From Phanerochaete sordida (taxonomy: Eukaryota > Basidiomycota > Agaricomycetes > Polyporales > Phanerochaetaceae): a stretch of DNA of 64,000 nucleotides. The stretch spans positions 1 through 64,000 of the forward strand of contig BPQB01000120.1 of NCBI GenBank assembly GCA_019973155.2. The letters run 5' to 3'. Numbering within the stretch: position 1 is the stretch's first letter; each line of letters starts with the position of its first letter. The notes beneath the pieces are model-generated. The model was not told where the DNA came from. It did not search any database and was given only the letters and a program-made list of their open reading frames with translations. The translations under genes were made by a program, and so were the position numbers. Shown here in pieces: positions 2,937 through 27,355 of this stretch.

Positions 2937-3511
2937 GGCCTCCAGTGGAAGCCTAAGATTTGCGCAGTCGGCCGGAATGGATATGCTGCGAGTGCTGGTG
3001 CCGGGTGGCCTCCAGTGGAAGCCTCGCGTGCGCGTGGTTGGCCGGCATGGACATACTGCAGGTGCTCATGTCAAGTGGCCTCCAGTGGAAGCCTCGCGTG
3101 CGCGTAACGGGCTGGCAGGGACGTGCTGCAGGTGCCCGTGTCAAGGGGCCTCCACTGGAAGCCTCGTGAGGCGTGTGCCTTGTCGGTGGGCATCCACCTA
3201 GTGCCGGTGCTCGCGGCGCGTGGCCGCTAGTGGTAGGGTAACATGTGTGGTCGACGCATGAACATGCTGCAGGTGCTCATGGCCGGTGGCCGCCAGTGGA
3301 AGCCCAAGGTGTATGGTCAGCTGGCATGAGCATGGTCCGAGTCATCGTGGTAAATAGCCTCCAGTGGAGGCAGGGAATGTGTGCACCCGGGTTTGAGAGG
3401 TGTGCTATAGGTGCTCGTGGCCGGTGGCGGCCAGCGGAAGCCTACTCTGTGCGTGTGCGCGGCCGGCAGGCGCATGGATGTGCCCGTGGCCAGCGGCCGC
3501 CAGTGGAAGCC
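2937..3511. repeat. 70-bp minisatellite with a 17-bp near-palindromic core
   Basis: The core GGCCTCCAGTGGAAGCC or a variant starts at 2937, 3007, 3077 and 3147 (exactly 70 bp apart). It continues with degenerate copies near 3222, 3288, 3356, 3426 and 3495 (66-75 bp apart). The sequence between cores is also repeated (CATG...GCAGGTGCTCATG-like), so this is a tandem minisatellite rather than a repeat-spacer array. It is the first of many arrays in the block built on the same core and lies just upstream of the unknown gene at 3891. Confidence 0.9.
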
Positions 3512-3890
3512 GAATGGTTTCCAACGCTTATGAACACGTAGTGCACGGGGAACCACGGCATGCACTGGGGCCTTGGAGCAGATACGGCATACAGTGAAAG
3601 GCCTCTAGTAACTTCGCGGGAGGTGCTGGTGGACAGCAATCTGACGGCAGGACCTGAGGTTGTTGGTGGTAAGAGGCTCAACATGCCTGGAGATGGGCTA
3701 ATGTTCTTGGGGCTTGAAACATAGTCGGGGTACAATAGATTGTTTATCTTGAATAGGGGCTCGGAGACAGCCGATAGAGGTAGGGCTAGTGAAACAGTCA
3801 GATCGGCTGGGATGGCCCCTGAGGCGATGGGGATTTAAGGGCGCGTGTGTTCGAGCTTCCTTCCTGTCAACCTTCACCCCAACGTTCACC

Positions 3891-6596
3891 ATGTCCTCGT
3901 TCCCTCACGAATGGCGGCCTGTCGTGGACATGTCAATCGCTGCATGGGCAAATCAAATCGTGCTAGCAAGCGAGGAGGAGGAGGATTGGGATAGGCAGAT
4001 GCTTGATCTCACGCTTGCAGGCCGATGGAAAAATATCGAAGGACAAGAGGAAGACCTGGTGCGACTGGTGCGACTCACTGAGCCACCAGTCTTGTACGAC
4101 GCAAATAGGCGGATGTCGGTCGAGCGCAAGGTGGAGGATGCGATGGGCGTGGCAGACCAACTACCGAACGGTCAAGACTTGTATGTGTACAGATGCCCAC
4201 CACTCGAGGCAGTGGCAGATATCAAGACTCCAACGCGCTTGACGCGAAAGATACAGAATGAGCCTGTAAGCATTTCGTCTTATCTGCCACCGCCGATCTG
4301 ATAGAAACATATCACCAGCCCGGGTTCAGCGGCGAAGTTGCTGTCGAGAACATTCCTCATTTCCTATTCGCCACCGCCGATGCAGTGACAATCTGGCTAT
4401 TTCTCCCTGGGCTATACTTCGCAGGAAGCGAGGATAACAGGGTGAACCTCAGCGAGATAGGATGCCTCTATATCGCGGCAACAAAGCCAGCACTGCTGCA
4501 TGTCGGTGTCGCCCTCCCCGACAACGATCCCTCAGCTGCTATCGATTTCACAGCGGTTCGCTCCTCGCGCTTCCAAGGCCTTCATGGATCCACAGTGCGT
4601 GTACCACGCCACAGCATCTCGGATTTTACGGAGCACTTCCTGGTGGCCACGGGAGGGGACCCGCGGTTCCACGCCTGTTTCTTCGGCTACCAGTTATCTC
4701 CCGGGGACACGTGGCATGATATCAGCGAGGTCGAAGAGAGGACCAAGGCCCACAACATCATCCAGTTCAAACTCGGCCATCTCGCTCATGCCTACCGCCC
4801 GGCATCTGAGCAGCGTGTATGCCGGATTAGCATGCGCTTTCGATATCCGGGACAAGCTCTACTCTGGCAGCCTGCAGCCCTCGAGAACTTCCTCATCGAA
4901 CTTCGTCCGTGGGCCCGTCCGGAGCTGACTGACGAGGAGATAGAGGAAATCGTAGGAGGAGCGGAGCGGGCAGGGACCGTCGGGGCAGTGACCTTCGCAA
5001 TGTGCCACAAGACGACAGTTACACTGTCGAAGAACAATAGCAGCAACATGAAGGCAATAGAGTTTCGAGCATTGGCCCCAGCTGAAAGTGACAAGCTCCC
5101 CGGCTTCAAAGTCTTCACAGCACAGGACACATATCCCCAGCGTACCGCATCCATGCTAGACGCGCTGGACGCGGCATCAACTCAATGTAACCGCCTCGCA
5201 GCACTCGACAACGGAAGAGGCGACGTGGAAGCCTTTGTCTCCTTGGACATGGATTACCGTCATAGCCGAAATGCTTTGACTACGTTCCCAGCAGTCCATA
5301 CACTGTTTTGGGACGTCAAGAGAACAGCATGGTGGTGAGTGTTGTAGAACTGTGACGTGAACGTGGATGATGAGTGTACTGATTGTGGGTATCAGGAAGT
5401 ATAGAGGATTGAGACTTCTCGCGATTAGCATCGCGTTGAAGAGGCTGCGCGATGATGCTCCGCCTGACGCGCGGCTTTGGCCCAGCTGTTTGGGCTTCGC
5501 TGCGATCTGCATCGTCATCATGAACTCATGCATCCTCCCACAAGAAGAAACCGAGGATATATCGGAGTTACTCGACATTACCGCATATTCCAAGGTACCT
5601 GATGCGGACAACGAGATGGCTGCTGCCTTCGGACAAGCAGCAGAGCTAGGCGAGCCGTGGATTCAAGATCGAGGAGCGTTCTTCATTGCAGGGATTGTGA
5701 AGAACATGATTCATGAACCCGATTACTATTTCTTCCGCCTGGCAACATACATGCAACCGTCTGCAGAACATTTGGCGCGGATTTATGGAGTGCAGTCACT
5801 TCATGAGCTGGGAGAGCAGTTCGGCATTGGAGCGCACAAACAGGTCATCGTCAACTACCACCCCACGCGCCTGTACAAGGGACGACATACCGCGATCGCG
5901 AGCAGCGGCATCACAAGAGCCTTGCCTGCACCACGGCAGTTCGACTTGCCTGACATTCGCGTGAGGCGACCCACGGTGCTTCGGGGACAAGATATTCTCG
6001 ATGAAGTGGAGGACCCAGACAGCGAAACCAACCTGGGATTATTCTTCCAGGGATTGCCTCTACAAGAAACTCTGGATAAGATCCTGCTCCAGCTGGCATT
6101 CGATATCATACAGAAGTCGCCTAACGAGCGGGGAGGGTCCATGTACACGACACTCAACGACGCCGAGCGCCGAAACGTCATTCCTGAGCTCTACCAGCAA
6201 CCAGTGCTTCCGTTCCGAGCAGCACACGTCATCCTCGTCTCCTCGGCAACATGGGAATCCATCGTGTGCTGCCTACTGCCTTCGAAGGGGCACGTAGTCC
6301 GCCAGAGGGCCTCAGGCTACACTACGAGCACGTATTTCAGGGCATGGACCGAACTGCAGAATCGCTTGACCCCGGGCGACTCCGCCAAGGTCACCAGAGC
6401 TATGCGAAACGAGGTGAGGGACTTCTTGTGGCTGCCCAAGGCGGATCCGTCAGGAATGTGGAGCTCCCAGCGGGACCTTGCAAAGGACGCAATCATTCTC
6501 CCGACAGGTTCAGTGGGTATTCTTGCCCCACAGATCGCGGCAAATCCTCGCCAGATGCCATCGTGGACCCAATTGAGCTTCTTTTCTCTTAAATAG
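3891..6596 (+). CDS. Unknown subtelomeric protein, paralogue A (863 aa, 3 exons)
   Basis: I do not recognise the family. The model is exons 3891-4265, 4319-5334 and 5396-6596; introns are 53 and 61 nt and phases agree, giving 864 codons with stop. The start was chosen because the N-terminus aligns with paralogue B (MSSFPHEWRPVVDMSI versus MPPYPDEQLPVITYSI). Exon 2 is 1016 nt in both genes. Shared landmarks are an IPHFLF/IPNICL segment opening the middle part, a WW pair straddling intron 2, a hydrophobic LGFAAICI segment just after it, a GS-YxTL...ELY...LPFRAA block, and a WLP tail motif. The LGFAAICI segment could be a buried helix; no signal peptide or catalytic motif is evident. A weak TATA-like TTTAAG lies at about 3833. 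The pair sits next to a subtelomeric SNF2 helicase, but a functional link is only inferred. Confidence 0.8.
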
Positions 6597-6822
6597 TCTT
6601 GCGGTAAGGACGGCATGGCTTGATGCAACAGCTCCAGGGCACTGATTAGTGGGGTTTTTAGTGATCGATGAAGTGAAGAGATATGGGATAAGCCTGCAAC
6701 ATTTCCCATCTGTATCCGGTTACAGTTTTACCTGCGGTCGACATAATAAAACGAGCATGTGATAGGAAAGGTGGCAGGGATGACCAGTGGTTTGGTTCTA
6801 GGGAGCAGACCATCAGATATGG

Positions 6823-7668
6823 GGCGCCACCGGAGGCCACCGAGGGCGGGGTCAGTATGTCAGGCTAGCTGGGGCCGCGGGGGTTTCGTGTGAGGAGCTT
6901 GATCTGTCTCCTGCGATATCCACATGTGAGAGTGCACCGGCCACTGGAGGCTCCCAGGCTGGCAGTCCTACCATCGGCGCCGGCGCTGCTCAGTCGCCAC
7001 ACTAGCGATACCAGGGCCGCCACAGGCGGCCGTGGAAGACATGCGGACACCAGGTGTATGGCGAGTTGGACTGGTGCGCGAGCATGAGCGGCGGTGTTGC
7101 AGACGCCACTGGAGCCTGCGACGCTGGCGGGGGCGTGCGTGCCTGACGTGTCTAGTGGGCACGGGGGCATGCCCAGAGCGCCGCCAACAGAAGGCTGCTG
7201 TTGTTACATGGAGCAAGCAGGATGGACTTCCCCGGTGCGACCAGGCGAGCCGCACGTGGGCCGCCAGTGGCGGCCGCGCCCCCTCAGAGCAGAGTAGAGC
7301 CTCCAACACACGAGCGCGTCACGGTGCCAGGGCCAGGGCGGCTTCCAGTGGCGGCTACACGACGGCTGGCACAGCGCGGGGAGACATATCCCGATGGCTA
7401 GTGGCGGATGGGAGGCGCCACTGGAGCCCTGATTGCAGCATCGAGCACCTGCGCGCGTTGAGCGTTGAGCCGCACGGTGGCCGCCCGTGGCGGCCGCTGC
7501 GTCTCAGCGAGACAAATTGCGCCTAAAGCAAAGTAGAGCCCCCAACCCATGAGCGCATTAACAAGTGCCAGTGCCGGGGTGGCTTCCAGTGGCGGCTACA
7601 CCATGGCCGGCACAGGGCGGGGAGACGTATCCGAATGGCCAGTGGCGGTTGGGAGCGCCACTGGAGCC
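6823..7668. repeat. Intergenic palindrome-motif cluster with a ~220-242-bp tandem duplication
   Basis: The region between paralogues A and B carries many copies of the 17-bp motif, for example 7015-7031, 7259-7275 (a perfect GGCCGCCAGTGGCGGCC), 7340-7356, 7479-7495 and 7582-7598. Sequence around 7259-7470 is repeated imperfectly around 7479-7700: matching cores start 220 bp apart at the left and 242 bp apart at the right, because of indels. No gene is supported here; GC-rich open frames on both strands are artefacts of the repeats. Confidence 0.85.
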
Positions 7669-7872
7669 CTGATTTCAGCATCGAGCACTTGCGCGCGTTG
7701 GGCCTTTCGTTCTGGTGGGGCTGATTCGCTCCAGCTGCTAGTATGGGAACATGGGACTCTGAATGACGTCAGAGAGGAGCTATAGTGCGGCTTGTGGGGG
7801 CTACCAGCGCGGCTTGCGATCGCAAACACGAATCGATTTGCAATGGTGGCAGGTGACGGGTGGGCGTGGCTG

Positions 7873-7880
7873 TATATAAT
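7873..7880 (+). promoter_or_regulatory. TATA-box candidate for unknown paralogue B
   Basis: TATATAAT lies about 32-39 bp upstream of the chosen ATG at 7912. If transcription starts about 30 bp downstream of it, the leader would be very short, which also argues against ATGs further upstream. This is inference from position and motif only. Confidence 0.45.
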
Positions 7881-7911
7881 GGGAGGCGACAGGGCCCTGG
7901 GGAAGATGGTC

Positions 7912-10589
7912 ATGCCTCCATATCCAGACGAACAATTACCTGTGATCACCTACTCCATCCAAGAGTTCAATGCCCGCGCGCACGAAATTCTTACAGGAGG
8001 GGCTGGAATCCATGACTTCCTGAACTTCGTTCTAGCTGGGCGTACAGAGCTCGAGGACGGCATGTGGCGTATCAATATCGACGTTTTCAAGGACTGCATC
8101 AATCTGGACGGACGCGAAGACGTGAAAGTCAATCGAGACTACGACTCCATCATAGGCATCACCCAGAATCTACCATATCGCAAAGCCATCTCCATTTACC
8201 CTGTCCCCAGCTTCCGAGATTGCCTCTTCAAGTCGAATCATATAAAGAGGACCATCCGTTTACCGGTAAGGGTTTATTTCGATGGAAGGTCCTTTTGCAC
8301 TCACAGAGACCGTTTGTTAGGGGTGGCAGGCATCACGGAAGGTTGATCTGTGCAGCATTCCCAACATCTGCTTGTGCACTGCCGGGCTGCGGCTCAAAAC
8401 CCTCCTTTTCTTCCCACGAATGTACGATGCTCAAGAACGTCGCCCCATCACCAAGGAGCAGATGGCGTTACTATATAACCAATGCCTTCGCCCAGCAGCA
8501 GCGGCGGTCTATCCACACTTCATGTCTCACTGGCCGGTCACCTACGATGCAGGACTAATGGCAATGCGAGACACCAGAGGGCGGTTTCATTTTTCTCGTA
8601 TCGACCTACCAGCACATCTGATAGATGACTTCGTTGTCCACCTCCGGGAGCATCTCAATGCCCTGCCCATCTTCCAAGATAGCTTCTTTCTCCACGAGGC
8701 CCGAGGAAGCAAGGGCTCAACAAATCACAACCCGGAGGACGTCGATGAGACTGACAACGCCTTGGAGGTTGCTCTCGACGAATTTGACGTGCCGAAGATG
8801 TTGGGAGAAGAGCACGAGTGGTACATCGACATTGGGCTGGAGATACAGCTAGCGAATGCAGTACTGCAGTGGAAAGCGGCGCATCACTCAGACATTCTAC
8901 GGTACACCCTGCCCTCAGCAACTCCAGAAGCGATCCACCGGACGGTGACCGGCCGCCACTTCAAGGTAGACGTCAGCTCCCTCTTGTACGAGCTGGCGGG
9001 TTTCCGTGTGGAGGTCCCTTCGGTAGGTGCACAAGACCATGTGCGCTACGTCAACGTCTACACAACAGACAAATCAGCGACTTATCAGCTGCATCCTGGC
9101 GCATTTCGAAGACATCGAGCATCAGATCTACTCCCACACTCCCTTGGGGCACTGGTCAAAGACATCGACTCCACGGGTGCACTGTACGACATGTGCAGGG
9201 GACTGACGGGCATCAAACAGGAGGGAGCGGCAAGGCTCGAAGTCAGGATGAAGATGATGCCAGGACTGATAGCAGGCAAGCTGCGGGACTTGGATCGTGC
9301 CGAAATCAACCAGTGGGTTGTGGGATATGATGCGCTCCAGTGGTGGTGAGACATTTCATGGGATTTTCGCCGCACAATCGACTTACAAGCTGACAACGTG
9401 CAGGATGTTGCGATTCTGGCGCTTGGCTGCAGTGAAATATGTGGTTAAGGCAAGCTTGGAGGCAAAACCACGGCTGCGATCAATGCGACCAGCCTTAGGG
9501 CTCGCGGCCATCTGTATATGGATCAAGAATGGGCTTATATTCAGGCCAGGAGACCAGCGATGGGACAAAGACATCGTAGCCAACGCAGCTTTCTGGGATA
9601 GCATCGACGAGGACAATCTGGCAGAAGAGGAGGAGCTGGAGGAGCTGATAGCCCAAGGCAACATGATACCCTCGACAGAGCAGCGGGGGCTGTACTTCGT
9701 CTCAGCTGTGGAGGAGACTCACGGAATCTTCCACCTTCCCTGGACCAGATCGCTCACCGCAGAAAATTACGCCTTGCTGTACAACGTCAACAGCTTCGCC
9801 GACCTCGAATTTCAGTTCATGCAGAGCGAGAACAAGAAAACTCGCCAAGACGTGTTAGCCGGACCTCGACGGAACAACAAGCGGAAACGAGCCCAGCAAC
9901 CGCCGAGAGAGCGGTCCCCCGCAAGAGACATTGCCTTCCGCCTGTCCGAGGCAGGCGTGAGGGTGGCTCCGGTTGCAGCCAGCATTCCCGCTGCTGTCTT
10001 GGAAGGAATGATTGCTGAAGGGCATGACCACCCGGATGCCGAGCTCAATGCAGTATGGCAGGACTTCCTGCGCGACGTCGTCGCAGTGATTCCGATGGCT
10101 CAGAGAGGTGGGGGGTCATACTGCACGCTGGACGTAGAGGAGCGGGAGCGGGTGAGCGAGGAGCTGTACAAGTCAAGAGAACTGCCATTTCGAGCGGCAA
10201 TCCTCAAGGTCGCTGAGGATAGTACGTGGGACGGGCTATTTTTTGACCGGTTTTTCCCCGACAGCGTGGAAATCAACCGACGTCAAAGACTGACTCAGCA
10301 CTTCGGGGCCTGCCACTATTGGACACGATGGCAGGTGTTGATGGCAAAAGTCATCGACCGCGGGCAGCAGATCACAATACGGGGCAAACTTCGCAGCGAG
10401 TTCAGGAAGCTCATGTGGTTACCGTGGACATCAAGCGACCGGATTTGGGTCACGGGAAGGACCGAGAAGGGGACATTCGTGAAGCTGCCTGAGGGTCACG
10501 AAGGCCCAGCGCCCAAGATCGCAATCAACGGTCGCCTCGGGACGGCCCTGAGCTTGTGGTCCCTGAAGGGGCAAGGGCAGGGGAACTAA
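7912..10589 (+). CDS. Unknown subtelomeric protein, paralogue B (851 aa, 3 exons)
   Basis: Tandem paralogue of the gene at 3891, of unrecognised family. Exons are 7912-8265, 8330-9345 and 9404-10589, with introns of 64 and 58 nt at the same positions and phases as in A, giving 852 codons with stop. The ATG at 7912 aligns with the start of A; an in-frame ATG at 7906 is an alternative. Conserved blocks are those described for A. A basic stretch, RRNNKRKRAQQPPRERS, in exon 3 looks like a nuclear-localisation signal and is absent at that place in A. The two proteins are clearly diverged (many substitutions, indels) while gene structure is kept, suggesting an old duplication with both copies still open. 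The 17-bp repeat motif is not found in the exons. Function unknown. Confidence 0.8.
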
Positions 10590-10641
10590 CAAGGCTTAAT
10601 GCACCGCGGGGGTGGGATTCGAGTGGATGGAGTCGAATACG

Positions 10642-11131
10642 GACGCCATTGGCGGCCCTCGAGCGGGGACGGCATGGCGGAAGCTAGGCAGCGTATGTTT
10701 TGTAGGTACCTTAGAATGAGATCCCACTCGCATCGCCCACAGCAGTGCACCCGCCAGAGGCGGCCACCCGAGGTGGCGAAGGAAGGGTCGTGAAGACTGT
10801 ACTTTGTGCTGGATTGCCGTGTCGTTGCAGCGCTTCCGCTGCACAAGGTGGCTTCCAGTGGAAGGCATGGGGCACGCGACAGGACTGGCCAGCCTCGGGG
10901 TAGTAGCTTTGGTGGTGAGGTGGGGCGCGCCGGCTTCCAGTGGAGGCCACCCTGTACTGACTGAGAAGGGTGAATCGTACGGTACACATTTCCAGGTATG
11001 CCCCACCATCTGCTCATCTCGGGTAATCATGGGAGAGGGGCATTTTGAGTGACCGTGGGAGCGATTATGTCACGTATTTGGCGGAGACTGCAGAGGGCGG
11101 GCGGGTGCGTCGCAGGCCGCCAGTGGCGGCC
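10642..11131. repeat. Dispersed 17-bp near-palindromes upstream of helicase 1
   Basis: The gap between paralogue B and the first SNF2 gene (10590-11392) holds at least five motif copies or variants, near 10642, 10750, 10849, 10930 and 11115-11131. The last is a full GGCCGCCAGTGGCGGCC. Here they are spaced irregularly and not in an obvious tandem array. Nothing else is evident apart from the TATA-like site at 11321. Confidence 0.8.
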
Positions 11132-11320
11132 TCCCCTCTTGGCCGCGTAGGCATGTCGAATCAGACCTCACGGTCACGGGCCAGGGCGTCAGGGGTAAAC
11201 GGTGACGTAGCTTCATCGTTGTTGTCGGCCGAGGGCCTTGAAAATCTTGTGATCGAGTCGGCGCCTCCGAAGCACGGGAAGGAGAGGCATTATGAAATAC
11301 ATTCCCGGCAGTCCCCGTGG

Positions 11321-11330
11321 TAATATATAG
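11321..11330 (+). promoter_or_regulatory. TATA-box candidate for SNF2 helicase 1
   Basis: TAATATATAG lies about 65-70 bp upstream of the ATG at 11393. The second helicase gene has TATATATA at a similar distance from its ATG (about 58-67 bp), so the core promoter layout seems conserved between the two copies. Confidence 0.5.
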
Positions 11331-11392
11331 TGTCAGGGTCGACATGTGCTTCTTTCCCTGACCTTCCCCATCAACCATCACCTGTCATTCCC

Positions 11393-14300
11393 ATGGCTCC
11401 ATCCTGGGGTCTATTCCTGGTGGCATGGCCGCAGCTGTGGGACAACGAGGTCTTCTCGGAGGTGACAGGCATTAGGCGCCCGATCTACATGGACGACCCT
11501 GTACCTGCCATGCCCGGACTGTTTGCCACGGACACCGACAAGCAGCAGCTGCGCGAGTTCGTCCAGCGAGTTCAGCACACGGCCGGCAAAGACCAGAAAG
11601 AGACCGTGTGGTCAGCGAAGCGTGCGCCCGCGGAGCTGCGCAATCGCCTGAATAAGTGGGCGGGATACGTCAAAAAACGGCCGGGCTTCACGCTGCACCG
11701 AAAGGTTCAAGACATTCTGGTGGAAATGCAAATGGACCACTGGGCCCAGCTTGCCCATTCCAATAATCCCAGAGACCTGAAATCGGTGAGTGGCAACAGG
11801 CTTCCAGCTCTTGGAGAGGCTGCTGATGCGCCCCCTAGATCGACATGCCAGTGCAGATAATTGTGGGCAAGTGCGGCGAGCAAATTCTCGAGCTTCTCTT
11901 CGACGACCCTCCTCGTCTCATGGGGGAGGGGCTGAGCAGCATGCTCACGATGCTGGTCACCATCGTCACCGGGGGCATGCGATCCGAGGTCAACCGTACC
12001 CTCAACAAGATTGAGCAGCTGGAGAAAGGGGTCGAGGATGATGCGGCTGGTGCGTACCCGAGCTCGATGAGTTTCACCCTATGGGCTGACAGGTTGCCCT
12101 GTGCAGAGCTCTACAACCCGAAGATCGAGGCGAAGCGACTGAAGGCCATCATCAATTCAATCACAACCAACTCAACCAAGCTGATTGAAGCAAGAGCGAA
12201 GACTCGACGAGCAGAAGATGAGGAGAAAAACACCAACTTGCAGGAGCGCATGAAGGCGATCAGGGACGCCATGGAGAGCAAGAAAGCCCGAGGTTGGTCC
12301 CACGGGGATTGAGTCACCGCTTTACTGAATATTGCTATAGCTATGCCGGACGAGACCTTCCGGATGATCGCCCAGATGACAAACGAAGCACAGCTCGAAG
12401 ACGAGCGTCAAGCTCTGGATGCGGCACTGGAGGCACAGCCTGTCGAACACGACTACGAGCCCGTCGGCCACGGGAAGCCCATGGAGAACTGGAACCTTGA
12501 CGACGAGCTAGGCCATCTCAATGGTCGATCCAGAAAAGACATCTACATCTCTCTCGGCATTCCGAACGAGCACCTGCCAACCCTTACCACCTGGCGCGAC
12601 CAGTACCGTTGTCACGATACATGGACAGAGCAAGAGGACCCGGCTCCTGAAGACCACAAAGTCCCCGCCGAGCTGAAGTGGCACCAGGTTGTCGGGCTTC
12701 GCCGCATGGCCGAAGCCATGATGGCGCACAAGAGTCTCCTGGTCCTGGACGAGGTCGGCGTGGGCAAGACGCTGCAAGTCCTCGCCCTCATCGCATACCG
12801 CATCCTGTGCTTTCGAAGCGTGGAAGTGCACAACAAGCTGTGCGGCGACTTTGGTGAGTTCCGATCCTTCTGGTGAATCCTACGGCAGGGTGTAGGACAG
12901 CCGCCGCCGGCGACCGCATGAGCTACGCGCGTTGCAGTCAATGCGGAGTGCATCGGCGAGGTGTGGACGCCAGGGGCGGCCCCTCCGTCCCGGGGCGGAG
13001 CGCACCGAGCAGATGACGCGGCGGGCATACGCTGCGAAGACACCAGTGGTGGCCACACCGCAGCAGCCCCATGTAGGGCGCAGCCACTGGTAGCACCGCA
13101 GCGCGTGCACGAGCGGTGTGGGAGGACGCCAGTGGCGGGGCACGACGTGTCTGCCGGCATGCAGTGGGGAGCGCGGTGTGGCAGGCCGCCAGCGGCGGCC
13201 ACCTTGCAGCAGCCCATGTAGGGCGCACCCACTGGTAGCACCGCAACGTGTCCACGAGCGGTGTGGAAGGACGCCAGCGGAGGCCGCTCGGGGTGGGGCA
13301 CAATATTTCTGCAGGCACACAGCACGGAGTGCAGGGTGGACGGTGTGGCAAGCCTCCAGTGGCGGCCACCTTGCAGCAGCCTATAGGGGGCGGGACCTCG
13401 ACGGGGGTGCTCGCCAAGGACGCCAGCGGCGGCCCTACAGCTCGTCAGATGCAGTCTGCTGACTAATACCCTTCCGCATCCTCCGCAGCGAAAGACCCGG
13501 TGGAGACACTCCAGCCTGGGATTGTTGTCATCGTCCTGCCGCCGACCCTCATCAAGCAGTGGCGGGGAGAAATCGAGACATGGTTCCGCTACAACTCAGT
13601 CTTCATTGCTGAATACACGACCAAATATAGCAAGGAAGTTAGGCGCAAGTGGTGGGAAGCCTTCGTTTCGCAAAGAGACTACCCGGCCCACCACAAGATT
13701 GTCCTGGCGTCACGTGGGGTGAGCAGTCACATATTCTTGTGGCAACGGACGGCTGACGAGATCTCCGCAACAAGGCCGTGTTCACAGACGCGGAGCACTG
13801 CTTCACCAACAAGGGCAAGGTCCGCCCGGAGAAGGTCGAGAACACCTTGTTTGGGGCAGAGATAGGGCTCCTCATCGCCGACGAGATTCATGAGATCCGG
13901 AACCCCGGTCACCGTCTCACTACAATGATGGAGCTCAGAGCGCGTGTAGGTTGGTTGATCGCGTTGAGTGCTACACCCCTCGTGACACGCCCGCAAGTAA
14001 GTGTCACAGGCTTGTCGAGTATGAAACACGCAGCTTACAATGTCAAGGACCCCGTTCAAATTGGCAGGATAATGGGCGTCCCAGGTTGTACGGAGACCGT
14101 CGTGAAGCAGTTTGAGCGCCGCTTGCGCCAGGCGAGGACTATCGACAACAATCGCCGTAAGGCTGACGGTTCGGCGGTCAATGTCGAACGTGCCAAAGCT
14201 TTGCGCGGCGAGCGAATCTCCACAGAGGAGTACGAGGTCCCGAAGGCGCAGCGGGAGTGTATTGCGACCCTGAAGACCCTCTTCAAGGGGTGGGCCATGC

Positions 14301-17954: not shown

Positions 17955-18487
17955 GTTAGAGGCCTCGTGACGAAATGAAAAGGAGAACTCCACTGTGTAG
18001 TAATCGCATTCCGGTCACTAGCCGCAGTTTGATCTTCTTGCCACAACGTACCTGCAATGCCACATGTTTTCCATCTGTTTTGCATCCGCGCCATCAAGCG
18101 AGAGGGCTTTGTGCGATTCCAACAAGGTGTGATAGGATTAGCACCGGTGGTGCCGGCCAGTGGCGGCCCTTCCCTCATGACCTGGCTTCATGTGGGCAGG
18201 ATTAGCTATTCAACCCGTCGGGTGGAGGGCCGCCGCTGGCGGCCATTGCGAGGTGATTCGGCCCATGCCCAGCAGTGGCCTTCAGTGGCCTTGAGAAAGC
18301 ACGACGAAGCCATAGACACAAACAATATATACTGCGGGGCAAGCTAGTAGTACACTGGCGCTAATAGTACACTGGCGAAAAGAGAGCTGGGGGGGGGCGG
18401 ATGATGCGTGCGCAATTTGTACAAGACGGGCATGGAGAGCTCGAGACCTGGCGGCAACCGAGACGATGGCGACGACGAAACCTTCAC
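17955..18487. other. Intergenic gap between the two convergent helicase genes
   Basis: This 533-bp gap between the two stop codons contains motif copies at 18152-18168 and 18228-18244 (GGCCGCCGCTGGCGGCC). A short direct repeat of AGTACACTGGCG occurs near 18350 and 18368, followed by a run of nine or so G residues. No gene is supported. Confidence 0.7.
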
Positions 18488-19917
18488 CTACGCTGTGCCG
18501 GAACCCCGGCCAAGGGGTGGCTTGACGCGTGAGCGAAGCGTCCTGCCGGACGGCACCGGATCCTTCGCCTTCTGCACAGGGCTTTGTGGCAGCGGCGGCG
18601 GTGACTCTGCGTCGTCATCGGGGGTAGGTGTGAGCGGGCTACTCCCACGATCTTCCTCCGCTGCACTGGGCTCGGCGCTCACGTCCTCGGGGACAGCGGG
18701 GAGGCCTTGCTCAGCAGTGCTGCCGGGGGGGTCGTCGATGTGCATCTTGTCGAGGTTATTTTCGAAGCCCCCCAAGTCGCGGGCTGCGGCGGGCTGGGCG
18801 CCACTAGCGGCCGCTGCTGAGCTAGAGGGGCGAGCGTGCACAATGGGGCGACGGACGCCACTGGCTGGCAGGCGGATCGTCACAGGCGCGGACTGGGCGC
18901 CGCCCGCGAGGATCGACGTGGCGCGGCTTGGCTGAGCGTGCTGAGGGGGCAGGGGGACTCCACCGGCGGGCGGAGTGCCAGGTGACGGCGGCTCGTAAGG
19001 AGGATCGGCCATCTGGATGTCATGCTCTCCTCGCATGGAGTCCGGCGACGGAGGCCTAGCAGCGGCCTTGCCCTGGTGCTTCGCCTGAGACCTGAGTGGA
19101 GTCTCATCCTCCGACTCGACCTCCTCCTGGGTGACGGGTGCTCTACGACCACGTCCGCGTCCACGGCCACGACCGCGACTACGCCCACTGTCCGAGGGAC
19201 CTGCCTCGGAAGGATCGTCGTCGCCGCGGATTGCCTGCACGGCCGCATTGCCTAGTGTTCAAGAGAGATGTCAGATGTGTAAACGGTATGTGGATACGGA
19301 TCGTGTCCACACTTACGTATGAGGGGCGAGATCTCCTCGGGGGCGATGAAAGCGTCGTGCATCTCTTCCTTGCTGAAAGAGATGTTGCTCAAGCTTGTCT
19401 CGTTCACCTCCAAGGCCAGAGGGCGGTAGACGAGCACAGGTTTCGTCTGAGGGCTGCGCCACACACGTCCGATGAACTGACGATCCTCCTGGCCTGACCA
19501 CATCGACGACTGCATTGAGCCGAAGATGTTTGGCTGAGATCAGCTCAATGACCCAGCGGCGGGAAGGAGGGCGTACCAGGAAGATGACGATGTTGGCGCA
19601 GTCGAGGTTGAGGCCGGTGATTCCGACGTGGGTGACGATCAAGACCTCGGGAGTATCGGAATCCCGGAAGGTCTCAAGAACCTGGGCCCGCTTCTTGCAC
19701 GAGAGGCTACCGTGAAGGACTGTAGCCTGAATTCCCCATCGCCAGTCGAGGACCTGCGCAGGGTTACAGCGATCTGAAGCAGAGACATAGTATCTGTACT
19801 TACTTTCTTCAGCAGCTGCTGCTGCTGCGTGAAGAAACAGTAGACGACAATCTTGTCGGGGGTGGAGATATCCCAGAGCGGTTCAGGGGGTACGTAGTCC
19901 TCCTCGTCCTCGTCGTC

Positions 19918-19952
<35 letters not shown>

Positions 19953-22900
19953 TGTCGCTCGGGTCTTGCTCGGCCTTGTCGCCGCCGTCCTCGTCTTGCT
20001 CGTCCTTGTCGCCGCCTCGTGGCTTAGCGGCCTGCCGGGCACGATCGCGCTCCTCCTGGATGCGACGAGCTTTGCACTCCTTGGCATGTATGCGGAAAGG
20101 CTCGTAGGAGGGGTGAAGTTCGTTCTGGAAGGAGTCCCACTGCGGCGAATCGGGGGTGAGGCTATCACCATTGGGGTGCTTGTTGACAAGGGGCGCGGCC
20201 GCGGGGATGTAGAGATGGTTCTGGATGATGTCGACGGCCATGTCGATCTTCATGGACGGCTTCTGCATGTACTCCTCCTTGGTGTGGGGGAGTCTCCACG
20301 TCGCTGGGCCATCGTAGTTGGGCGTGGCTTCGACGGTGAGTAGGTGCTGGTAGAAGTCGACGTGAACGAGGATTTTGCGAATGTCGAGGTAGAAATTCTG
20401 ATGAGGTTTAATCAGTATGTGTCGCAGTATTTAATGCAGGAAGCCACTGGAGACCAGCGCGCGCTGCGAAGCTCGTCACCCCGAGCTACTAGCAGTAGCA
20501 GCGATGGCGTAGCATCCTGTCATCCGCGCTGGCAGAGGAGCCGCTGGAGGCCGCGCGACACACGGCCCTCGCGGTGTGGCAGCGCGTGGGGAGCGCACGA
20601 GACCTGGCAGCCGCTGCGGGCCCACAGGAGGCGGACCGCGAGGTTCCACGGTCGCCAGTGGCGGCCGTGGGGATACTGGACGCATGGCAGTATCCTGGCC
20701 AGTGACGGGGTGTCACGGCACCAGCCAGCCAGCGCACTGGCGAAGCAGCCACTGGAGGCCGCGCGTGCCTCCGTCCTCGCGGCATGGCGACGCTCAGGGC
20801 ATCTGAGGCGCAGCCCGCGCTGCTCTGCGGCCGCCACTGGCAGCCACGAGCGCTGCCCGGGACTGCCACGGACCATGGGCTAGGCGAGAGTCGTCGCGGG
20901 TGGGTGGCCGCCACTGGCGGCCGCGGGGCGGTGGAGGCGCCCTCTCGGCACAACACCGCAGCGCGCACTCCGCGGACACGCAGCCCGTGCACCCCCGCAG
21001 GCGCCGCCGCGGGCGGCCGCACTGCCCTACGGCCGCCACTGGCAGCCGCGAGCGCTGCCCGGGACGGCCGCGGGCCGTGGGCTAGGGGTGAGTCGTCGCG
21101 GGTGGGTGGCCGCCAGTGGCGGCTGCGAGGCAGTGGAGGGTCCCTCCCAGCACAACACCGCCGAACGCACTCCACGGACACGCAGCCCGCGCATCCCCGC
21201 AGGCGCCATCGGCGGCCGCAGCCTGCGGGGATCGAGCGGTGGACCCCAGCTGTGGCCAGCAACGAACGCGGCCTCCCTCACATGTGGTCGCCAGTGGCGG
21301 CCACTATGCGTCTACAAAGAAATGCAACTCACCGACTGCCACTGCCCAACGTCGCCGTCCCGGATGTCGCGCGCGACGAGGCCAGAGATGCACTCGCGCT
21401 CGTGCTCGTACAGCTTGCCGAAGACGTAGATCTCGATGGGAGGGTCCGCGCCCCAGATGGGGTTCCCCTGATTGTCAAGACTGCGAATTGTGCGGCGCAT
21501 GGCCGAGCCCTTGAAGAGGCGCTGGAGGGACGCGATTAACTCCCGCTGTACCTTGGGAGACTCATACTCCTCGGTGGAGATGCGCTCTCCGCGCAAGGCT
21601 TTGGCGCGCTCGACGTTGACGGGTCCGCCCTCCTGCTTGCGACGGTTGGCGTCTGCCTTTCTGGCAGCACGGAGGCGGCTCTCGAAACGTCTGGCAAGCT
21701 CCGCCGTGCAGCCGGGAATGTGCATCATGCGGCCAATCTGTACGGTGTCCTGCGAGTATCGCTGAGCATGTCGCTGAAATGGCAATCTGGAAAACCATAC
21801 CTGGGGACGGGTGACGAGGGGGGTGGCGCTCAGAGCAATGAGGAACCCGACGTGGCGCACGAGCTCTATCATCGTGTTCAGGCGGTGGCCGAAGTTACGT
21901 ATCTCGTGGATCTCGTCGGCGACGAGCAGGCCGATTTGTGCGCCAAACAGGGTGTCCTCGACGCGGTCAGGATTGACGATGCCCTTGGCGGTGAAGGCCC
22001 GCGTGGCGTCACTAAACACGGCCTATGGGTGCGCGATCCATGAGCTCTCGAGTTTGCTCGACACATGTGACACTTACCGAGCGTGACGCGAGAATGATCT
22101 TGTGATGAGGCGGGTAATCTGTCTTGTCGTTCAAGGCTTTCCACCATGCGCGACGCGTGTCGGCGTCCCATTTCGTGGTGTACTCGGCGATGAAGATCGT
22201 GTTGCACAAGAACCATGTCTCGATCTCGCTGCGCCACTGCTTGATGAGGGTAGGGGGGAGGACGATGACGACGAGTCCAGGGAGGACCTCGGCATCGGGA
22301 GATTCTTCTGAGGAACGAGTTAGCGTCAAACGTGGGATGGCGAGGCAGCACGAGCGATGCAGCCGCCACTGGCGTCCTCCGCGGTGTGACTCGCGGGCAA
22401 GACGCAGCGGCGCGGTTGCACCAGGCCGCCACTGGCGGGTCGCGGGCACAGAGAGCAGTGGCGGCGGGACGTCACACTGCCTGCTCCGCCGAAGCTGCCA
22501 GCGGCGGCCGTCACAGCAGGGGACGGAGCGTAGCCGCAGGCACGGCGCAGCGAAGGCCGCCAGCGGCGGCCGTCACAGCAGGGGATGGAGCGTAGCGGCA
22601 GGCACAGCGCAGTGAAGGCCGCCAGCGGCGGCCGTCACAGCAGGGGACGCAGCGTAGCGGCAGGCACGGCGCAGCGAAGGCCGCCAGCGGCGGCCATGTC
22701 CAGTCATGACGGCGTGATTGCCCAGAGAACAGGCTGATCGCACTCACCAAAACTGCCGGGGAGATGGCCTTGCTTCTCCAAGCTCCGAAGGCACAGGATG
22801 CGATATGCGATGAGGGCGAGGACCTGCAGCGTCTTGCCAACGCCGACCTCGTCCAGGACAAGGAGGCTCTGGCGCGCCATCATGGCTTCGGCCAGTCGGC

Positions 22901-24193
22901 GGAGGCCAACAACTTGGTGCCACTTCAGCTCGGCGGGGACCTTGTGATCCTTAGGAGCAGGGTCCTCCGCCTCTGTCCACGTGTCGTGGCACCGGCTGGG
23001 GTCCCGCCAACCTGAGAAACAGGGAAGGCGCTGGGCGGGGATGCCGAGCGAGACGTAGATCTCGGGCTTGGAACGACAGGATATGTGACCCACCTCGCCA
23101 TCGAGGTTCCAGGTGTCCATGGGCTTGCCGTCCTCGACAGGATTGTAGTTGTCGTCGTCGATAGGCTCCTCCAAAGCGGCATCCAAGGCTTGACGGGCGT
23201 CGTCGAGTTGTCGTGTGTTCGTCATCTGAACGATCATGCGGAAGGTCTCGTCCGTCATCTCTGTCAGCGACGATCAGCAAGCATGGGAACGCTGCATGCG
23301 AGACACGAACCCTTTGCTTTCTTGCGGTCCATTGCGTCCCTTAGACCCTCCATCCTCTCCTGGAGGGTCGCGTTCTTCGCCTCGTCGTCGTTGCGTCGCG
23401 TCTTGGACCTCGCCTCGATCAGGCGCTTGGCATTCGTCGTCACGGATTTGATAGCTGCCAGAAGTTGCCGGCTATCCAACTTGGGAGAGAAGAGGACTGC
23501 CATATACTACCATGAGCTGATGCACTGAAGATGGGCACAGTAACTCACGGGCTGCGTGCCCTTCGACGGTATTCTCCAGCGTCGTGATCCTGTTGAGGGT
23601 ACGGGTGACGTCGGAACGCATACCCCCAAGGACGACAGTGATGAGCATGGTGAGGAGGGGGCCGTCGGCCATTGGATTTGGCGGGGGCTGGTCATAGAGA
23701 AGCTCGAGGATCTCGTCGCCACACTTCCCGACGATAATCTGGACTTGCATGTCGACCTAGGCGACAATAAGAAACGAGCCGAGAATTTAAGTGGGCTGCT
23801 CACAGATTTCAAGTCACGAGGAGTAGCGGAAACATTGAGCATGGCCCAATGGTCCATCCCTGCGTCGGCGATGATCTCGTGGACTCGCCGGTGGAGGACG
23901 AACTGCGGTCGTTTTTTCACGAACATGGCCCACTTGGTTAGTCTGCTCCGTATGGTGCCGGGGGCATTCTTCGCCGACCAGACGGTCTCCTTCTCGTCCT
24001 TTTTCGCCGCCTGCTGAACTCGCGCGACGAACCCGTACAGCTCGTCCTTCTCGGCATCCGCGAACAGGCCGGGGACGTCAGGAACGGGATTCTGCATGAA
24101 TATAGGACGGGTGATGCCTGTCACCTCGGAGAAGGCTGCGTTGTCCCACAGGTGGGGCCATGCGACGAAAAACAGCGCCCACGACGGCGCCAT
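18488..24193 (-). CDS. SNF2-family helicase-like protein, copy 2 (1,297 aa, 11 exons)
   Basis: Paralogue of the gene at 11393, convergent with it. Exons in transcription order: 24193-23804, 23756-23549, 23496-23311, 23260-22748, 22307-22078, 22022-21801, 21749-21333, 20397-19804, 19753-19577, 19509-19317, 19251-18488; phases agree, 1,298 codons with stop. Exons 3-7 have exactly the copy-1 lengths (186, 513, 230, 222, 417 nt) and every intron position matches. Motifs I (DEVGVGKT), II (DEIH), III (SATP), V (VTHVGITGLNL) and VI (QEDRQFIGRVWRSPQ) are intact, so it looks functional. It retains the acidic tract and GR-repeat tail (GRSRGRGRGRGRGRR) followed by VESEDETP, but the tail lacks the 32-aa repeats and the final basic exon; a further unrecognised 3' exon is possible. 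Introns 4 (440 nt) and 7 (935 nt) hold palindrome arrays; the others are 47-67 nt. Confidence 0.87.
20440..21302. repeat. Palindrome array with a 202-bp tandem duplication in intron 7 of helicase 2
   Basis: The 935-nt intron (20398-21332) carries about nine cores, including 20650-20666, 20744-20760, 20829-20845, 20906-20922, 21031-21047, 21108-21124 and 21286-21302. The pair 20829/20906 recurs as 21031/21108, a shift of exactly 202 bp, and the sequence between them is duplicated too. This is the longest intron in the window. Confidence 0.9.
22493..22695. repeat. 62-bp minisatellite in intron 4 of helicase 2
   Basis: Cores of the form GGCCGCCAGCGGCGGCC start at 22493 (first copy AGCTGCC...), 22555, 22617 and 22679, exactly 62 bp apart. 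The spacer (GTCACAGCAGGGGA...GCGAA) is nearly identical between units. Two more cores precede it near 22360 and 22423. It lies in the 440-nt intron 22308-22747, the counterpart of the array-bearing intron 4 of helicase 1. Confidence 0.93.
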
Positions 24194-24250
24194 GCGAGCA
24201 GATGGTGGTTGGGGGCGTGGAGAGGAAAAGGGGTGCATGACCCACGCAGG

Positions 24251-24258
24251 TATATATA
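24251..24258 (-). promoter_or_regulatory. TATA-box candidate for SNF2 helicase 2
   Basis: TATATATA lies 58-65 bp upstream of the ATG at 24193, matching the TATA placement of helicase 1. Assignment is by motif and spacing only. Confidence 0.5.
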
Positions 24259-24507
24259 CCAGCGGAGTTTAAGATTGCACCCAGATAAGCAAGAAGCGCA
24301 TGCAGCCCTATGCACCGACTGCGGCGACCAGTCCGGTCAGCTGCCACCAGCGACCTCCGCCGCAGGCCGTGAGCCGCCACCGGCGGCCGGCAGGAGAGAA
24401 GCAGGCTGCCGAGTCACGCTGGGAAGTCCAACGCGGCGCGAGGTTGGATCTTCGGCTCGCCCATGCCGCCATCTACGCAGGGCGGACCGGAGTCATTGTG
24501 GGGCGCT

Positions 24508-25062
24508 GGCCGCCGATGGCGGCCCCCCGGGGCCAAGCAGATCGGCTGCGCGGATGGCGACGATCCATCACCTGCTGCCCGCCAGTGGAAGGCATCGCGC
24601 GCAGGACTGTTACCATCCCCGCGGCCGTGAGCTCGGCCCGCCTGGCCGCGTCGTCCACCCTGAGCGGACCGTGGCGGAGACCGGCGCGCTGGCCGCCACT
24701 GGCCGCCATACTGCGCGGAGCAGATCAGCGCCGTCCCCGCGGCTGAGCTCGGCCTGCCTGGCCGCCGCCTCGTGTACCCGGATGGAATCGTGGCGGAGAC
24801 CGGCGCGCTGGCCGCCACCGGCGGCCACACTGGGCTGGGCAGATCATTGCCGTCCCCGCAGCTGGAAGCTCGGCGTGCCTGGCCCCGTGGTCTACCCTGA
24901 GCGGACCGTGGCGGAGACCGGCGCGCTGGCCGCCACTGGCGGCCACACTGGGCTGGGCAGATCATCGCCGTCCCCGCGACTGTAAGCTCGGCGTGCCTGA
25001 CCCCGTGGTCTACCCTGAGCGGACCGTGGCGGAGACCGGCGCGCTGGCCGCCACTGGCGGCC
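24508..25062. repeat. ~118-bp minisatellite upstream of helicase 2
   Basis: Cores GGCCGCCACTGGCGGCC or close variants start at 24691, 24810, 24928 and 25046 (118-119 bp apart), preceded by copies at 24508 and 24577. The intervening sequence, containing GGGCTGGGCAGATCAT and TGAGCGGACCGTGGCGGAGA, is strongly conserved between units. The array fills most of the gap between helicase 2 and the unknown gene at 25356; the rest, to 25355, shows nothing else. Confidence 0.92.
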
Positions 25063-25355
25063 ACACTGGGCTGGGCAGATCATCGCCGTCCCCGCGGCTG
25101 TAAGCTCGGCCCGCCAGCGCCTCTCCGCCCAGCAGCGCACGGGGCAGATCCTGTTATCCCGCAGCGCCCCGTGTCCCCAGCTACCGCTGCCTGTGGCCGT
25201 CGCTCCTAACAGCCATACCACCTACATCCACTGAAAGCTGAGGGCGTGCTGCGTTGATCGTCCTCACAGCGAGCAGGCTTACTGTACAAGGTGCTGGATA
25301 GGTACATAATACACGGTTGCATACATGCTACTGTACATTCGACGGGGACAGACAA

Positions 25356-26808
25356 TTACAGAAAGCCAGCATGACGGATCCGGCGAGCCACCCCCGCTAG
25401 ACTCGCGCGGATGTTAGCAAGCGTAGCCCTAGCGATCTGCTGGTCGCGGCCTTCGATAGCGTCAACCTCCGGCTGCGGCGACGGACTGCGCGACGAGTCA
25501 GCAGGCACGTGGGCCTGGCGCTCGGATCGAATTTGGGTGCTAATGAGCCTGGCGACGTCAGAGGGGCGGGTGACAACTGGAGTGGCGGACAGGCGGATGC
25601 CACCCATCCCTATGAGGTTCGCGACACTCGGGCCGTGTGACTGACGGAGTGGACTCCCTCCACCGCCAGGTACGGCGGCGCTCCCTTCGCGCGCGGTCTC
25701 GAGCAGGTCATCCGATGAGTCAATCTCAGAGCTCATATCGGAGATGGTGAGCAGGGAGGGGAGAGAGGAGCTGCGGGGCAGGGTACGGTCCTGCGACGGC
25801 TCCTGGTGACGCGTCGGCTCTCTGACCCACGCCTCCCCAATGGACTGTCTGTCGAGCTCCTCGATGAGCGCAGCATGACGGCGTAAGGTGACTGCGCTGC
25901 GCCGGGTAGTGTCGAGCTGCTCGACGGGCGCGGCATGACGGCGTAAGGTGACTGCGCTGCGCCGGGTAGTGGACGGCCACTGCACTGAGTAGAGGCCCAG
26001 GAGGAACTCGTCGATGGTAGGCAAGGGATAGTCGAGATCGAGAGAGGGTGGGGTGAGATGGCCAGACAGCCGGTCCTCGACCAGCGCACGCTCCTGATCC
26101 TCGGAGGAACCAGGAGCAGAGTACGCGTTCGTGCGCAAGAGGACGTTGTCGATGGGGTAGAACGCGATAGGAATGCTGGTGGTGAGATGGCTGCGCGCGT
26201 GTAGGAATTTGGCGAGACGAGTCACAGGACGCTGGGTCTGAACGGTGTTGACGACGGCGTGGAGCTCCGCGTCAGAGAGGGCCTGGAGGGGGAACATGAG
26301 GCCCCTATCTGCCACAGTTTGCTGCGCGGCGCAGATACGCTCAAGCACAGCTGGCCGAGCTATCTCGAACGCCTGCGTGAACAGAGCGTCTATCCAGCGC
26401 ACGTGAGATACGGCTTCGTCGCGCATTGCTGCAAAGCGCAGCACCAGCTCGAACGCCGCCTCTCGGCAGTCGGCGTCCTCAAACTGGGGGTCATAGAGCC
26501 GCCATGCTGCCTGCAGGTGCAGTCAGCCTCGGGAGGTGTGCAAGAACGCTGCACGTTGCGCTCACCAGTTCAGCCAGAGCGCTGCTGCAGTCCACTCGTC
26601 CACGGAACTCCACGTTCCGGGCCAGGAGCTGCTGTCGCGCGCGTTCCAGGCCACGACCTTCTGTTGCATCCAGGAAGCTCAGCACAAGCCAGCGGGCGAT
26701 CATGCAGCCCTCGACTGGGGTGAGATCATCCTTCAGGCTCCCTGTGAGAGGCGTTCGGGACTCATAGCTGGGAAATGCGGCAGCGTAGGCTCCTGCAATG
26801 GAGGCCAT
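25356..26808 (-). CDS. Unknown subtelomeric protein (465 aa, 2 exons)
   Basis: I do not recognise this protein. Exons are 26808-26566 and 26510-25356, with a 55-nt intron; both end in phase 0, giving 466 codons with stop. The ATG at 26808 (MASIAGAYAAAF) is the first in frame. The first ~250 residues look like a folded helical domain (many Leu/Ala/Glu, for example AAWRLYDPQF and IDALFTQAFEIA). Residues after about 260 are low-complexity and Ser/Arg/Pro-rich. A 60-bp tandem duplication gives two copies of TTRRSAVTLRRHAA. The upstream side carries a 111-bp palindrome minisatellite. It is the innermost gene of the motif-rich block, and no link to the helicases beyond location can be shown. Confidence 0.72.
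25861..25971 (-). repeat. 60-bp tandem coding duplication
   Basis: Two nearly identical 60-bp units (25861-25920 and 25921-25971) share CATGACGGCGTAAGGTGACT and continue alike for about 20 more bases. The period is a multiple of three, so the unknown protein gains 20 residues in frame. This repeat lacks the 17-bp palindrome. Confidence 0.9.
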
Positions 26809-26979
26809 GGCGGGGAACAAGAAGCAGCGGGGCCTCAGGAGAGCCCGTCTTCCAGACTAAGTACCCCTCGAGCCCAGCCCCTATCAGCGGACCACATGTT
26901 TCATGTGGTCAGCAGCGGAGCCAAACCTGGGACTGGCTCCCTCCGTGTGAAACCCGTGCCGTGAGTGCAGCGCTGAGTG

Positions 26980-27355
26980 GCAGCCAGTGGAAGCCGCGTG
27001 CCAGCAGCGCCAGCCTACACGCGTGCCCGACGCGAGTGCTCGCGTGCAGCCGCCACTGGCGCCCCGCTGGACAAGCAGGCCACGGTCCAGCAGTGGCAGT
27101 TGGCGCCGGTCCGAGCGGCCGCCAGTGGAAGCCGTGTGCCCGGGGTGAGTGCCCGCGTGCAGCCGCCACTGGCGGCCCGCCGGACAGGCCATGGCCCACC
27201 GGCGGCGATCAGCGTCTCTCTCCGAGTGGCCGCCAGTGGAAGCCGTGTGCCCGGCGCGAGTGCCCGCGTGCAGCCGCCACTGGCGGCCCGCCGGACAGGC
27301 CATGGCCCACCGGCGGCGATCAGCGTCTCTCTCCGAGTGGCCGCCAGCGGAGGCT
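26980..27355. repeat. 111-bp minisatellite with two alternating cores
   Basis: Cores GGCCGCCAGTGGAAGCC start at 27117, 27228 and 27339 (last as GGCCGCCAGCGGAGGCT), 111 bp apart. A second core, AGCCGCCACTGGCGGCC, starts at 27161 and 27272, also 111 bp apart. A diverged unit precedes them at 26980-27060. These are the last motif copies seen in the window; none were found to the right. Confidence 0.9.

Follow-up and report, generated by a model that had tools for sequence, protein, structure and literature searches.

Arrays of a 17-bp palindromic word in a telomere-borne gene block of Phanerochaete sordida: predicted binding sites of an element-specific regulator

Introduction

The white-rot fungus Phanerochaete sordida YK-624 has a draft genome of 41.2 Mb (PMC8530024). 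We analysed the first 64 kb of contig C120 (BPQB01000120.1; 69,194 bp) in an assembly of 40.8 Mb and 222 contigs, and we call this whole stretch of 64,000 nucleotides the window. The contig starts in telomere repeats TTTTAGGG; behind them lies a block of some 27 kb with five modelled genes, and dispersed through the upstream regions, large introns and coding tails of these genes is a 17-bp near-palindrome, hereafter the word. Its sites are dense in one group of related blocks, vary independently in their two arms and change more slowly than the sequence around them. We predict that they form binding arrays of a regulator specific to the block.

The gene block and its arrays

The features of the block and its borders are as follows.

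1..109, unstranded: telomere repeat (TAAAACCC)n, 13.6 copies
2880..3560, unstranded: array 1, with 8 sites in 70-bp units at 388-946 bp upstream of the ATG of gene 1
3891..6596, plus strand: gene 1, 863 amino acids (aa); exons 3891-4265, 4319-5334 and 5396-6596; our model
6780..7700, unstranded: array 2, with 10 sites at 245-1076 bp upstream of the ATG of gene 2
7906..10589, plus strand: gene 2; first splice site uncertain; our model
10590..11160, unstranded: array 3, with 5 sites at 270-744 bp upstream of the ATG of helicase gene A
11393..17433, plus strand: helicase gene A, called from Pfam; exon-intron model partial
12854..13487, unstranded: large intron of gene A; 8 sites
14467..14820, unstranded: second large intron of gene A; 4 sites
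16150..17300, plus strand: coding tail of gene A; 9 sites, 96-bp (32-codon) repeat
18100..18300, unstranded: intergenic, two sites; the 3' ends of genes A and B lie on either side
18450..24193, minus strand: helicase gene B, inverted paralogue of A; model partial
20402..21332, unstranded: large intron of gene B; 11 sites; position matches 14467-14820 of gene A (by eye)
22310..22747, unstranded: large intron of gene B; 6 sites in 62-bp units; position matches 12854-13487 of gene A (by eye)
24270..25200, unstranded: array 5, with 7 sites in 118-bp units at 187-861 bp upstream of the ATG of gene B
25356..26808, minus strand: gene 5 (PsYK624_160540), 465 aa; no family assigned; a 91% copy lies on contig C62
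26860..27400, unstranded: array 6, with 7 sites in 111-bp units at 179-539 bp upstream of the ATG of gene 5
27488..28154, unstranded: pyrimidine-rich repeat, inner border of the block, from the sequence comparison of contig ends

Start codons, introns and the probable coding tail of gene B (3 sites at 18700-19000) are our own models, and the splice sites of the large introns were judged by eye. The spliced model of gene 5 is 100% identical to the deposited protein over all 465 aa and is the sole model backed by one. Gene 2 is a paralogue of gene 1 (29-32% at the aa level in the last exon), and gene 1 matched no Pfam family above the cut-off. Gene A has a Helicase_C domain above the cut-off (E 1.2e-12) and a SNF2-related domain below it (E 4.2e-5); the helicase gene pieces scanned gave no RecQ match. 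Genes A and B agree in 71% of aa in the compared exon, with a synonymous divergence (dS) of about 1.3 and a ratio of nonsynonymous to synonymous change (dN/dS) of 0.18 in the exons compared.

The placement of the sites follows the genes. Thirty-seven of 80 lie upstream of the five modelled ATGs (8, 10, 5, 7 and 7 before genes 1, 2, A, B and 5) at distances of 179-1076 bp, and none is closer to these ATGs than 179 bp. The other 43 are divided among four large introns (29), two coding tails (12) and the interval that separates gene A from gene B at their 3' ends (2); the other exons and the short introns of the block hold no sites. The original prediction, made from the letters of the window, had placed the copies between genes, in introns and in one exon: the intergenic and intronic positions hold, and the coding ones number 9 and 3, in the tails of two gene models.

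Each of the 12 arrays has 7.5-13.7 sites per kb, within limits drawn round the 80 sites themselves. Spacing within arrays is quasi-regular, mostly 60-118 bp, and irregular in some of them; the long-unit tandem arrays hold one or two sites per unit. With the motif masked, none of the 12 arrays resembles any other (best E 0.25), and a common flank or an old satellite was rejected as the source of the sites on this ground. Both helicase paralogues have arrays in the same two large introns without any similarity of flanks, so that the motif was either re-established there or kept while the surrounding sequence was replaced.

Number, form and distribution of the word

A search for GGCCGCCASTGGCGGCC with at most 2 mismatches, which is independent of any trained matrix, gave 41 sites in the window, all within 3,288-27,288, against a mean of 0.06 and a maximum of 1 in 100 shuffles. 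The word is thus real and block-wide, as originally claimed, and base composition does not account for its frequency. A symmetrised matrix at a score of at least 10, trained on sites of the same block, gave 80 sites at 2,937-27,355 and none in the window from 29.6 to 64 kb; 20 simulated second-order sequences yielded a mean of 1.1 and a maximum of 4. The earlier count by eye of at least 45 copies was right as to their abundance and too low as to their number. The heptamer core CCASTGG occurs 58 times in the block (6.7 expected) and once in the 34.4 kb beyond, and the most over-represented 7-mers of the block, CCACTGG (58 against 6.7 expected) among them, are mostly fragments of the word.

The sites follow a consensus of about RGC(C/T)(G/T)CCA-S-TGG(C/A)(G/A)GCY. 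Their central base is G in 40 cases, C in 37, T in 2 and A in 1. The CC/GG flanking the central three bases is nearly invariant (80/80 and 78/80 position pairs), and the A/T beside the centre is substituted on one side in 26 of the 80 sites.

Genome-wide, with the reversed word as control, GGCCGCCASTGGCGGCC at up to 2 mismatches is found in 93 places (control 16) and GGCNNCCAGTGGNNGCC in 39 (control 0). The latter are distributed over the window (22), the C62 end (10), C91 at 3.5-3.7 kb (2) and other places (5); three of these last share one sequence (C14, C27 and C162). The 11-bp core CGCCAGTGGCG occurs 104 times, 100 of them as listed matches and four as additional sites from the reading of C191. 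By our count, 46 of the 104 fall in six clusters: the C62 end (16), C120 (14), C191 at 9.2-9.3 kb (6), the first 504 bp of C17 (4), C91 (3) and C97 at 16.2-16.6 kb (3). The remaining 58 are scattered, five of them within 78 kb on C23, against 51 for the control. The word is dense in one element group and at background level elsewhere, and an equal density in chromosome interiors is not what we find: 34 of the 39 GGCNNCCAGTGGNNGCC matches belong to the window, the C62 end and C91, and scattered cores are about as frequent as the control.

The cluster on C17 stands at the contig start (116-504), where four CGCCAGTGGCG cores lie in 390 bp, none of the GGC..GCC form.

Independence of the two arms

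Over the 80 sites, the arms match at a mean of 6.15 positions per site, against 6.05 when they are permuted (p 0.11), and perfect palindromes number 5, against 7.9 expected from random arm pairing. The half-sites GGCCGCCA (44 of 160), GGCTTCCA (16) and GGCCTCCA (8) are freely combined. Compensatory change that would keep the arms pairing was not found, and the hairpin was rejected on this negative result for arm covariation. Arms that vary independently suit two half-sites read by a protein and not base-pairing.

Sites and flanks in the copy on C62

The end of C62 is a copy of window 20.3-28.1 kb, of which the four longest pieces (to 26.99 kb) are 93-97% identical and the last about 80%; the comparison is of this one close copy pair. 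Three of the arrays align well. Of their 25 window sites, 24 stand at identical columns in the C62 copy, and the remaining one lies across an 80-bp gap of the alignment, at which C62 has one extra repeat unit. Two sites are present only in the copy: that unit brings one, and two point changes produce the other. Bare gain or loss of a 17-mer was not found in this copy pair, and a mobile motif was rejected on the lack of a bare empty site there.

Counted over the union of sites, 13 of 441 site positions (2.9%) changed between the copies of the three arrays and 167 of 1935 flank positions (8.6%; Fisher p 1.4e-5; 0.0004 of rotations equally low). A fourth array (22.3-22.7 kb, 6 of the 31 compared window sites) is not alignable site by site and was excluded from the column count; its inclusion gives 24/527 site and 268/2230 flank differences. 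Divergence is 2.1% at 0-4 bp from the centre, 4.2% at 5-9 bp and 6-13% beyond, so that at a distance of 10 bp the preservation has vanished. At synonymous sites the copies diverge by 0.056-0.089 in four stretches out of five and by 0.028 in the other, which has 57 codons; since the flanks change at about the synonymous rate, they behave about neutrally. Among the tandem units of six arrays or pairs, 0-6% of motif positions and 9-46% of the remaining ones differ, the outer flanks of end units reaching partly outside the arrays.

The last 127 bp of C62 match window 28930-29055 inverted and adjoin the match at 20256, which may reflect a rearrangement or an assembly join inside helicase gene B.

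A diverged relative and the other chromosome ends

On contig C191 (16,139 bp, of which about 4 kb were read), genes 1 and 2 have homologues whose order and orientation agree with those in the window. The first C191 gene matches gene 1 at 51% and 36% in two exon pieces; the second matches gene 1 at 26%, and at its start P0001, the best gene 2 relative, at 51%. Six cores lie about 520-640 bp upstream of the first gene, five of them in an 18-bp tandem unit, and six lie about 400-980 bp upstream of the second, five in a 90-bp unit. The cores (CGCCAGTGGCG, CGCCACCGGCG and CGCCGCTGGCG) are forms found in the window or one step from them. The outer bases are different: GCC/GCT triplets stand at 63 of 93 CG-type half-sites in the window and at 0 of 25 on C191, and AGT/GGT/GGG/ACT at 3 of 93 and 23 of 25, respectively. 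Related blocks, judged from these two lineages compared closely, carry a nearly shared core within different outer bases; both kinds of outer bases are present on C97. Where two words exist in one nucleus, a host factor would see one, which suggests that each block brings its own reader protein, array copies being non-independent.

On C91, a different palindrome, GACCGCGGTC, forms an array in CATGACCGCGGTCGTGCG-type units at about 5430-5690 (by eye), upstream of a telomere-near minus-strand frame at 3.97-5.17 kb with a sub-threshold DndB match. Other blocks may have their own words. Ten open reading frames on C97 and C91, eight of them around the C97 cluster, had no Pfam match above the cut-off.

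Six contig ends start in telomere repeats, and clusters are found at C120, C91 and C97. The ends of C56 and C121 (30 kb each) and of C178 (9.8 kb) have no site at a score of at least 14; C178 has one at a score of at least 10 (12.2). The idea that the word runs through the whole subtelomeric block therefore stands for the block on C120 and fails for three of six telomere ends, clusterless in the stretch read, and a general telomere feature was rejected for the same reason; dense clusters accompany certain gene blocks near contig ends. C146 and C148 have telomere-like runs of 38 and 46 bp, about 90-110 bp inside the contig end, behind sequence that is also on C91 at 6.6 kb; they were not counted as ends because the run lies inside the contig. 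No site reaches a score of 14 in the 20 kb of C146 or the 19 kb of C148 scanned, the latter having one at 13.2.

The pyrimidine-rich repeat at the inner border of the block starts about 150-250 bp from the ends of C56, C97, C121, C146, C148 and C178. As it follows telomere repeats closely at these six other contig ends, the 27-kb block on C120 looks inserted between the telomere and the common subtelomere. Blocks in this position are found at some ends only, and one is fully seen at a single end (C120).

Several observations concern these borders. The pyrimidine-rich repeat, common to several chromosome ends, has a CpG observed/expected ratio of 0.30 in window 27500-28900. The inner end of the block stops at ...AGTCTCATAACCCT both on C120 (27460-27490) and on C91 (3950-3980). 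Short telomere-like runs lie inside C91 (6704-6718), C146 (90-127) and C148 (near the end), behind one shared sequence, and elements seem to be stacked in telomere repeats. Window positions 815-875 and 29530-29590 are alike and resemble the ends of one repeat family (by eye).

Candidate binding proteins

Candidates for a binding protein within the block are the gene 1/2 family and gene 5, neither of which has a called DNA-binding domain. The gene 1/2 family gave nothing above the Pfam cut-off, nothing credible in PADLOC and no solved relative. Protein searches found no relatives with gene 1 and six with gene 2, the family being present in Trametes sanguinea, Chiua virens and Tulasnella; with gene 5 they returned only its two copies, both in the P. 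sordida genome. The viral contigs searched contained no relative. A Pfam scan of 20 window pieces, which is not exhaustive, found no transposase.

The C-terminal part of P0005, the gene 2 relative from Chiua virens, has a cysteine cluster with the spacing 2-7-8-2-6 and no Pfam call. The spacing resembles that of Zn2Cys6 clusters, which bind DNA and read CCG/CGG halves, and such halves are contained in many of the sites.

Discussion

Among the options that the original prediction had offered, a protein target fits best, as the arms vary independently and binding is what we would predict from them. We consider it moderately probable that the word forms binding arrays of a dimeric, element-specific regulator that controls the telomere-borne gene block. 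A sequence-specific protein would bind the word in the form of a symmetric dimer, with each half recognising about (A/C)CGCCA in the direction of the shared central G/C. In its arrays of 4-11 sites, the telomere-borne block, selfish or accessory, would carry a code for self-recognition. The arrays before the five modelled genes would serve as upstream control regions, with internal arrays sitting in large introns and repeat-rich coding tails, and the regulator would probably switch the block genes on or keep them unsilenced at the chromosome end. New sites would arise through local tandem duplication, after which selection would keep them as the flanks drift; the block lineages would have come to use other outer bases, which coevolution of the binding protein would lead one to expect. 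The data show how the sites are distributed and placed, that their arms are independent, that they change more slowly than their flanks and that a diverged block shares the core; protein binding, the dimer, element specificity and an activating or anti-silencing effect are features that we infer. The case rests on placement, preservation and C191, and not on the count of clusterless telomere ends. More tentatively, and with more doubt than assent, we raise the possibility that the dimeric protein is encoded by the block itself and binds the palindromic arrays to overcome subtelomeric silencing, with outer bases and protein changing together, as a convergent counterpart of VANC outside plants.

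Several results weigh against binding arrays of an element-specific regulator. No DNA-binding domain was called in the block gene pieces scanned, and the predicted structure of the gene 2 family is a weak model (predicted local distance difference test, pLDDT, 57) that gave no structural match. The preservation of sites comes from one close copy pair, gene conversion could mimic part of it, and the fourth array shows fast turnover of repeat units between the copies. Tandem units are non-independent, which makes the p values too small. The arms are heterogeneous within the window too, so an element-specific code rests mainly on C191. The dN/dS values between window and C62 are 0.40, 0.13, 1.34, 0.49 and 0.77 in five stretches; genes so weakly constrained between copies leave it unsure that the block still works. 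Finally, the CpG observed/expected ratio is 0.95 in the block and 1.18 further in, which does not favour an unmethylated block; as a sign of methylation, this depletion is mild and not decisive.

A factor of the host could also be the reader: a heterochromatin, insulator or silencing protein might silence the block or shield the interior through these sites. The telomere-near position would suit such a factor, as would the slower change of the sites and the presence of arrays in introns and not only before genes. However, three of the six terminal telomere ends are clusterless in the stretch read, scattered sites elsewhere are at control level, and C191 and the window would share the factor, yet differ in their outer bases; we find this explanation rather unlikely. 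It is quite unlikely, in our judgement, that the word is a replication or recombination site, i.e., an origin or a hotspot of unequal exchange that helps the block to spread or amplify at chromosome ends. Long-unit tandem arrays with one or two sites per unit, a unit number that differs between copies and the position of the block between telomere and common subtelomere repeat are compatible with that role, but the placement before ATGs and the absence from other exons and short introns fit gene control better, and an origin would not need 12 arrays.

Another option of the original prediction, a mobile hairpin, would be comparable to mitochondrial GC clusters or bacterial repetitive extragenic palindromes (REPs), with the 17-mer copying and inserting itself, or acting as a cruciform or RNA stem-loop. 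The word is indeed palindromic and GC-rich, has unrelated flanks and lies mostly in non-coding DNA, but it has neither covarying arms nor an excess of perfect palindromes, and 24 of its 25 compared sites stand at the same columns in C62, the differences being two point changes and the indel of an 80-bp unit; target duplications were not otherwise sought. We regard mobility or folding as very unlikely. Hardly credible to us is a remnant of an old satellite that has a slowly mutating core and no present function. The quasi-regular spacing is what such a remnant would leave, but array flanks share nothing with each other, the flanks drift about as fast as synonymous positions and the sites at a third of that rate, and the diverged homologues on C191 are preceded by a core that is nearly identical.

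Comparison with known systems

Chromatin at chromosome ends is usually silenced, and how genes located there stay expressed is, for most fungi, an open question on which the word bears. It can be directly tested with the 80 natural variants, near-neutral flanks, close copy and diverged relative that one genome offers here. In the open-licence literature, as judged by its listings, no report of this motif appeared, and the matches to pieces of its letter string look unrelated by title.

Short-motif arrays bound by an element protein are known from En/Spm, with TnpA, and from Ac, where they are subterminal, at the element ends, and serve transposition; the P. sordida arrays are alike in being arrays of a short motif, but lie before genes and in introns. 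Y' elements are helicase gene blocks at some chromosome ends. The telomere-linked regions of Agaricus bisporus are likewise gene blocks with helicases at some chromosome ends (PMC7473861), but their helicases are of the RecQ type and those of P. sordida SNF2-related/Helicase_C, and its block has, beyond the Agaricus and Y' type, two further gene families and the motif arrays. The main text of that report does not contain the string "palindrom" (PMC7473861). Bacterial REP palindromes with TnpA-REP are dispersed and tied to a gene system, and are processed as folded single strands (PMC8266576); dispersal and a tie to genes are shared with our word, whose arms, in contrast, do not covary.

The closest likeness is to the VANC-VANDAL system of Arabidopsis. 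There, a short motif is dense in one mobile-element family and rare elsewhere, lies in upstream regions and introns on tandem repeats that gain and lose units, takes different forms in related families and is bound by an element-encoded protein (PMC5735166, PMC10398659). In P. sordida, too, the motif is dense in one group, upstream and intronic, on tandem repeats with changing units and with lineage-specific outer bases. The two systems differ in that VANC21 sites have one orientation, whereas the P. sordida word is an odd-centred 17-bp palindrome without orientation, and in that the P. sordida block is fungal, telomere-linked and without a recognised transposase in the pieces scanned; as no Mutator-type transposase was found in these pieces, we do not file the block as a VANDAL. 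The best reading, by analogy, is that the arrays would work like the VANC motifs of plant VANDAL transposons, and if the binder proves to be encoded by the block, coevolving element proteins and motif arrays would exist outside plants.

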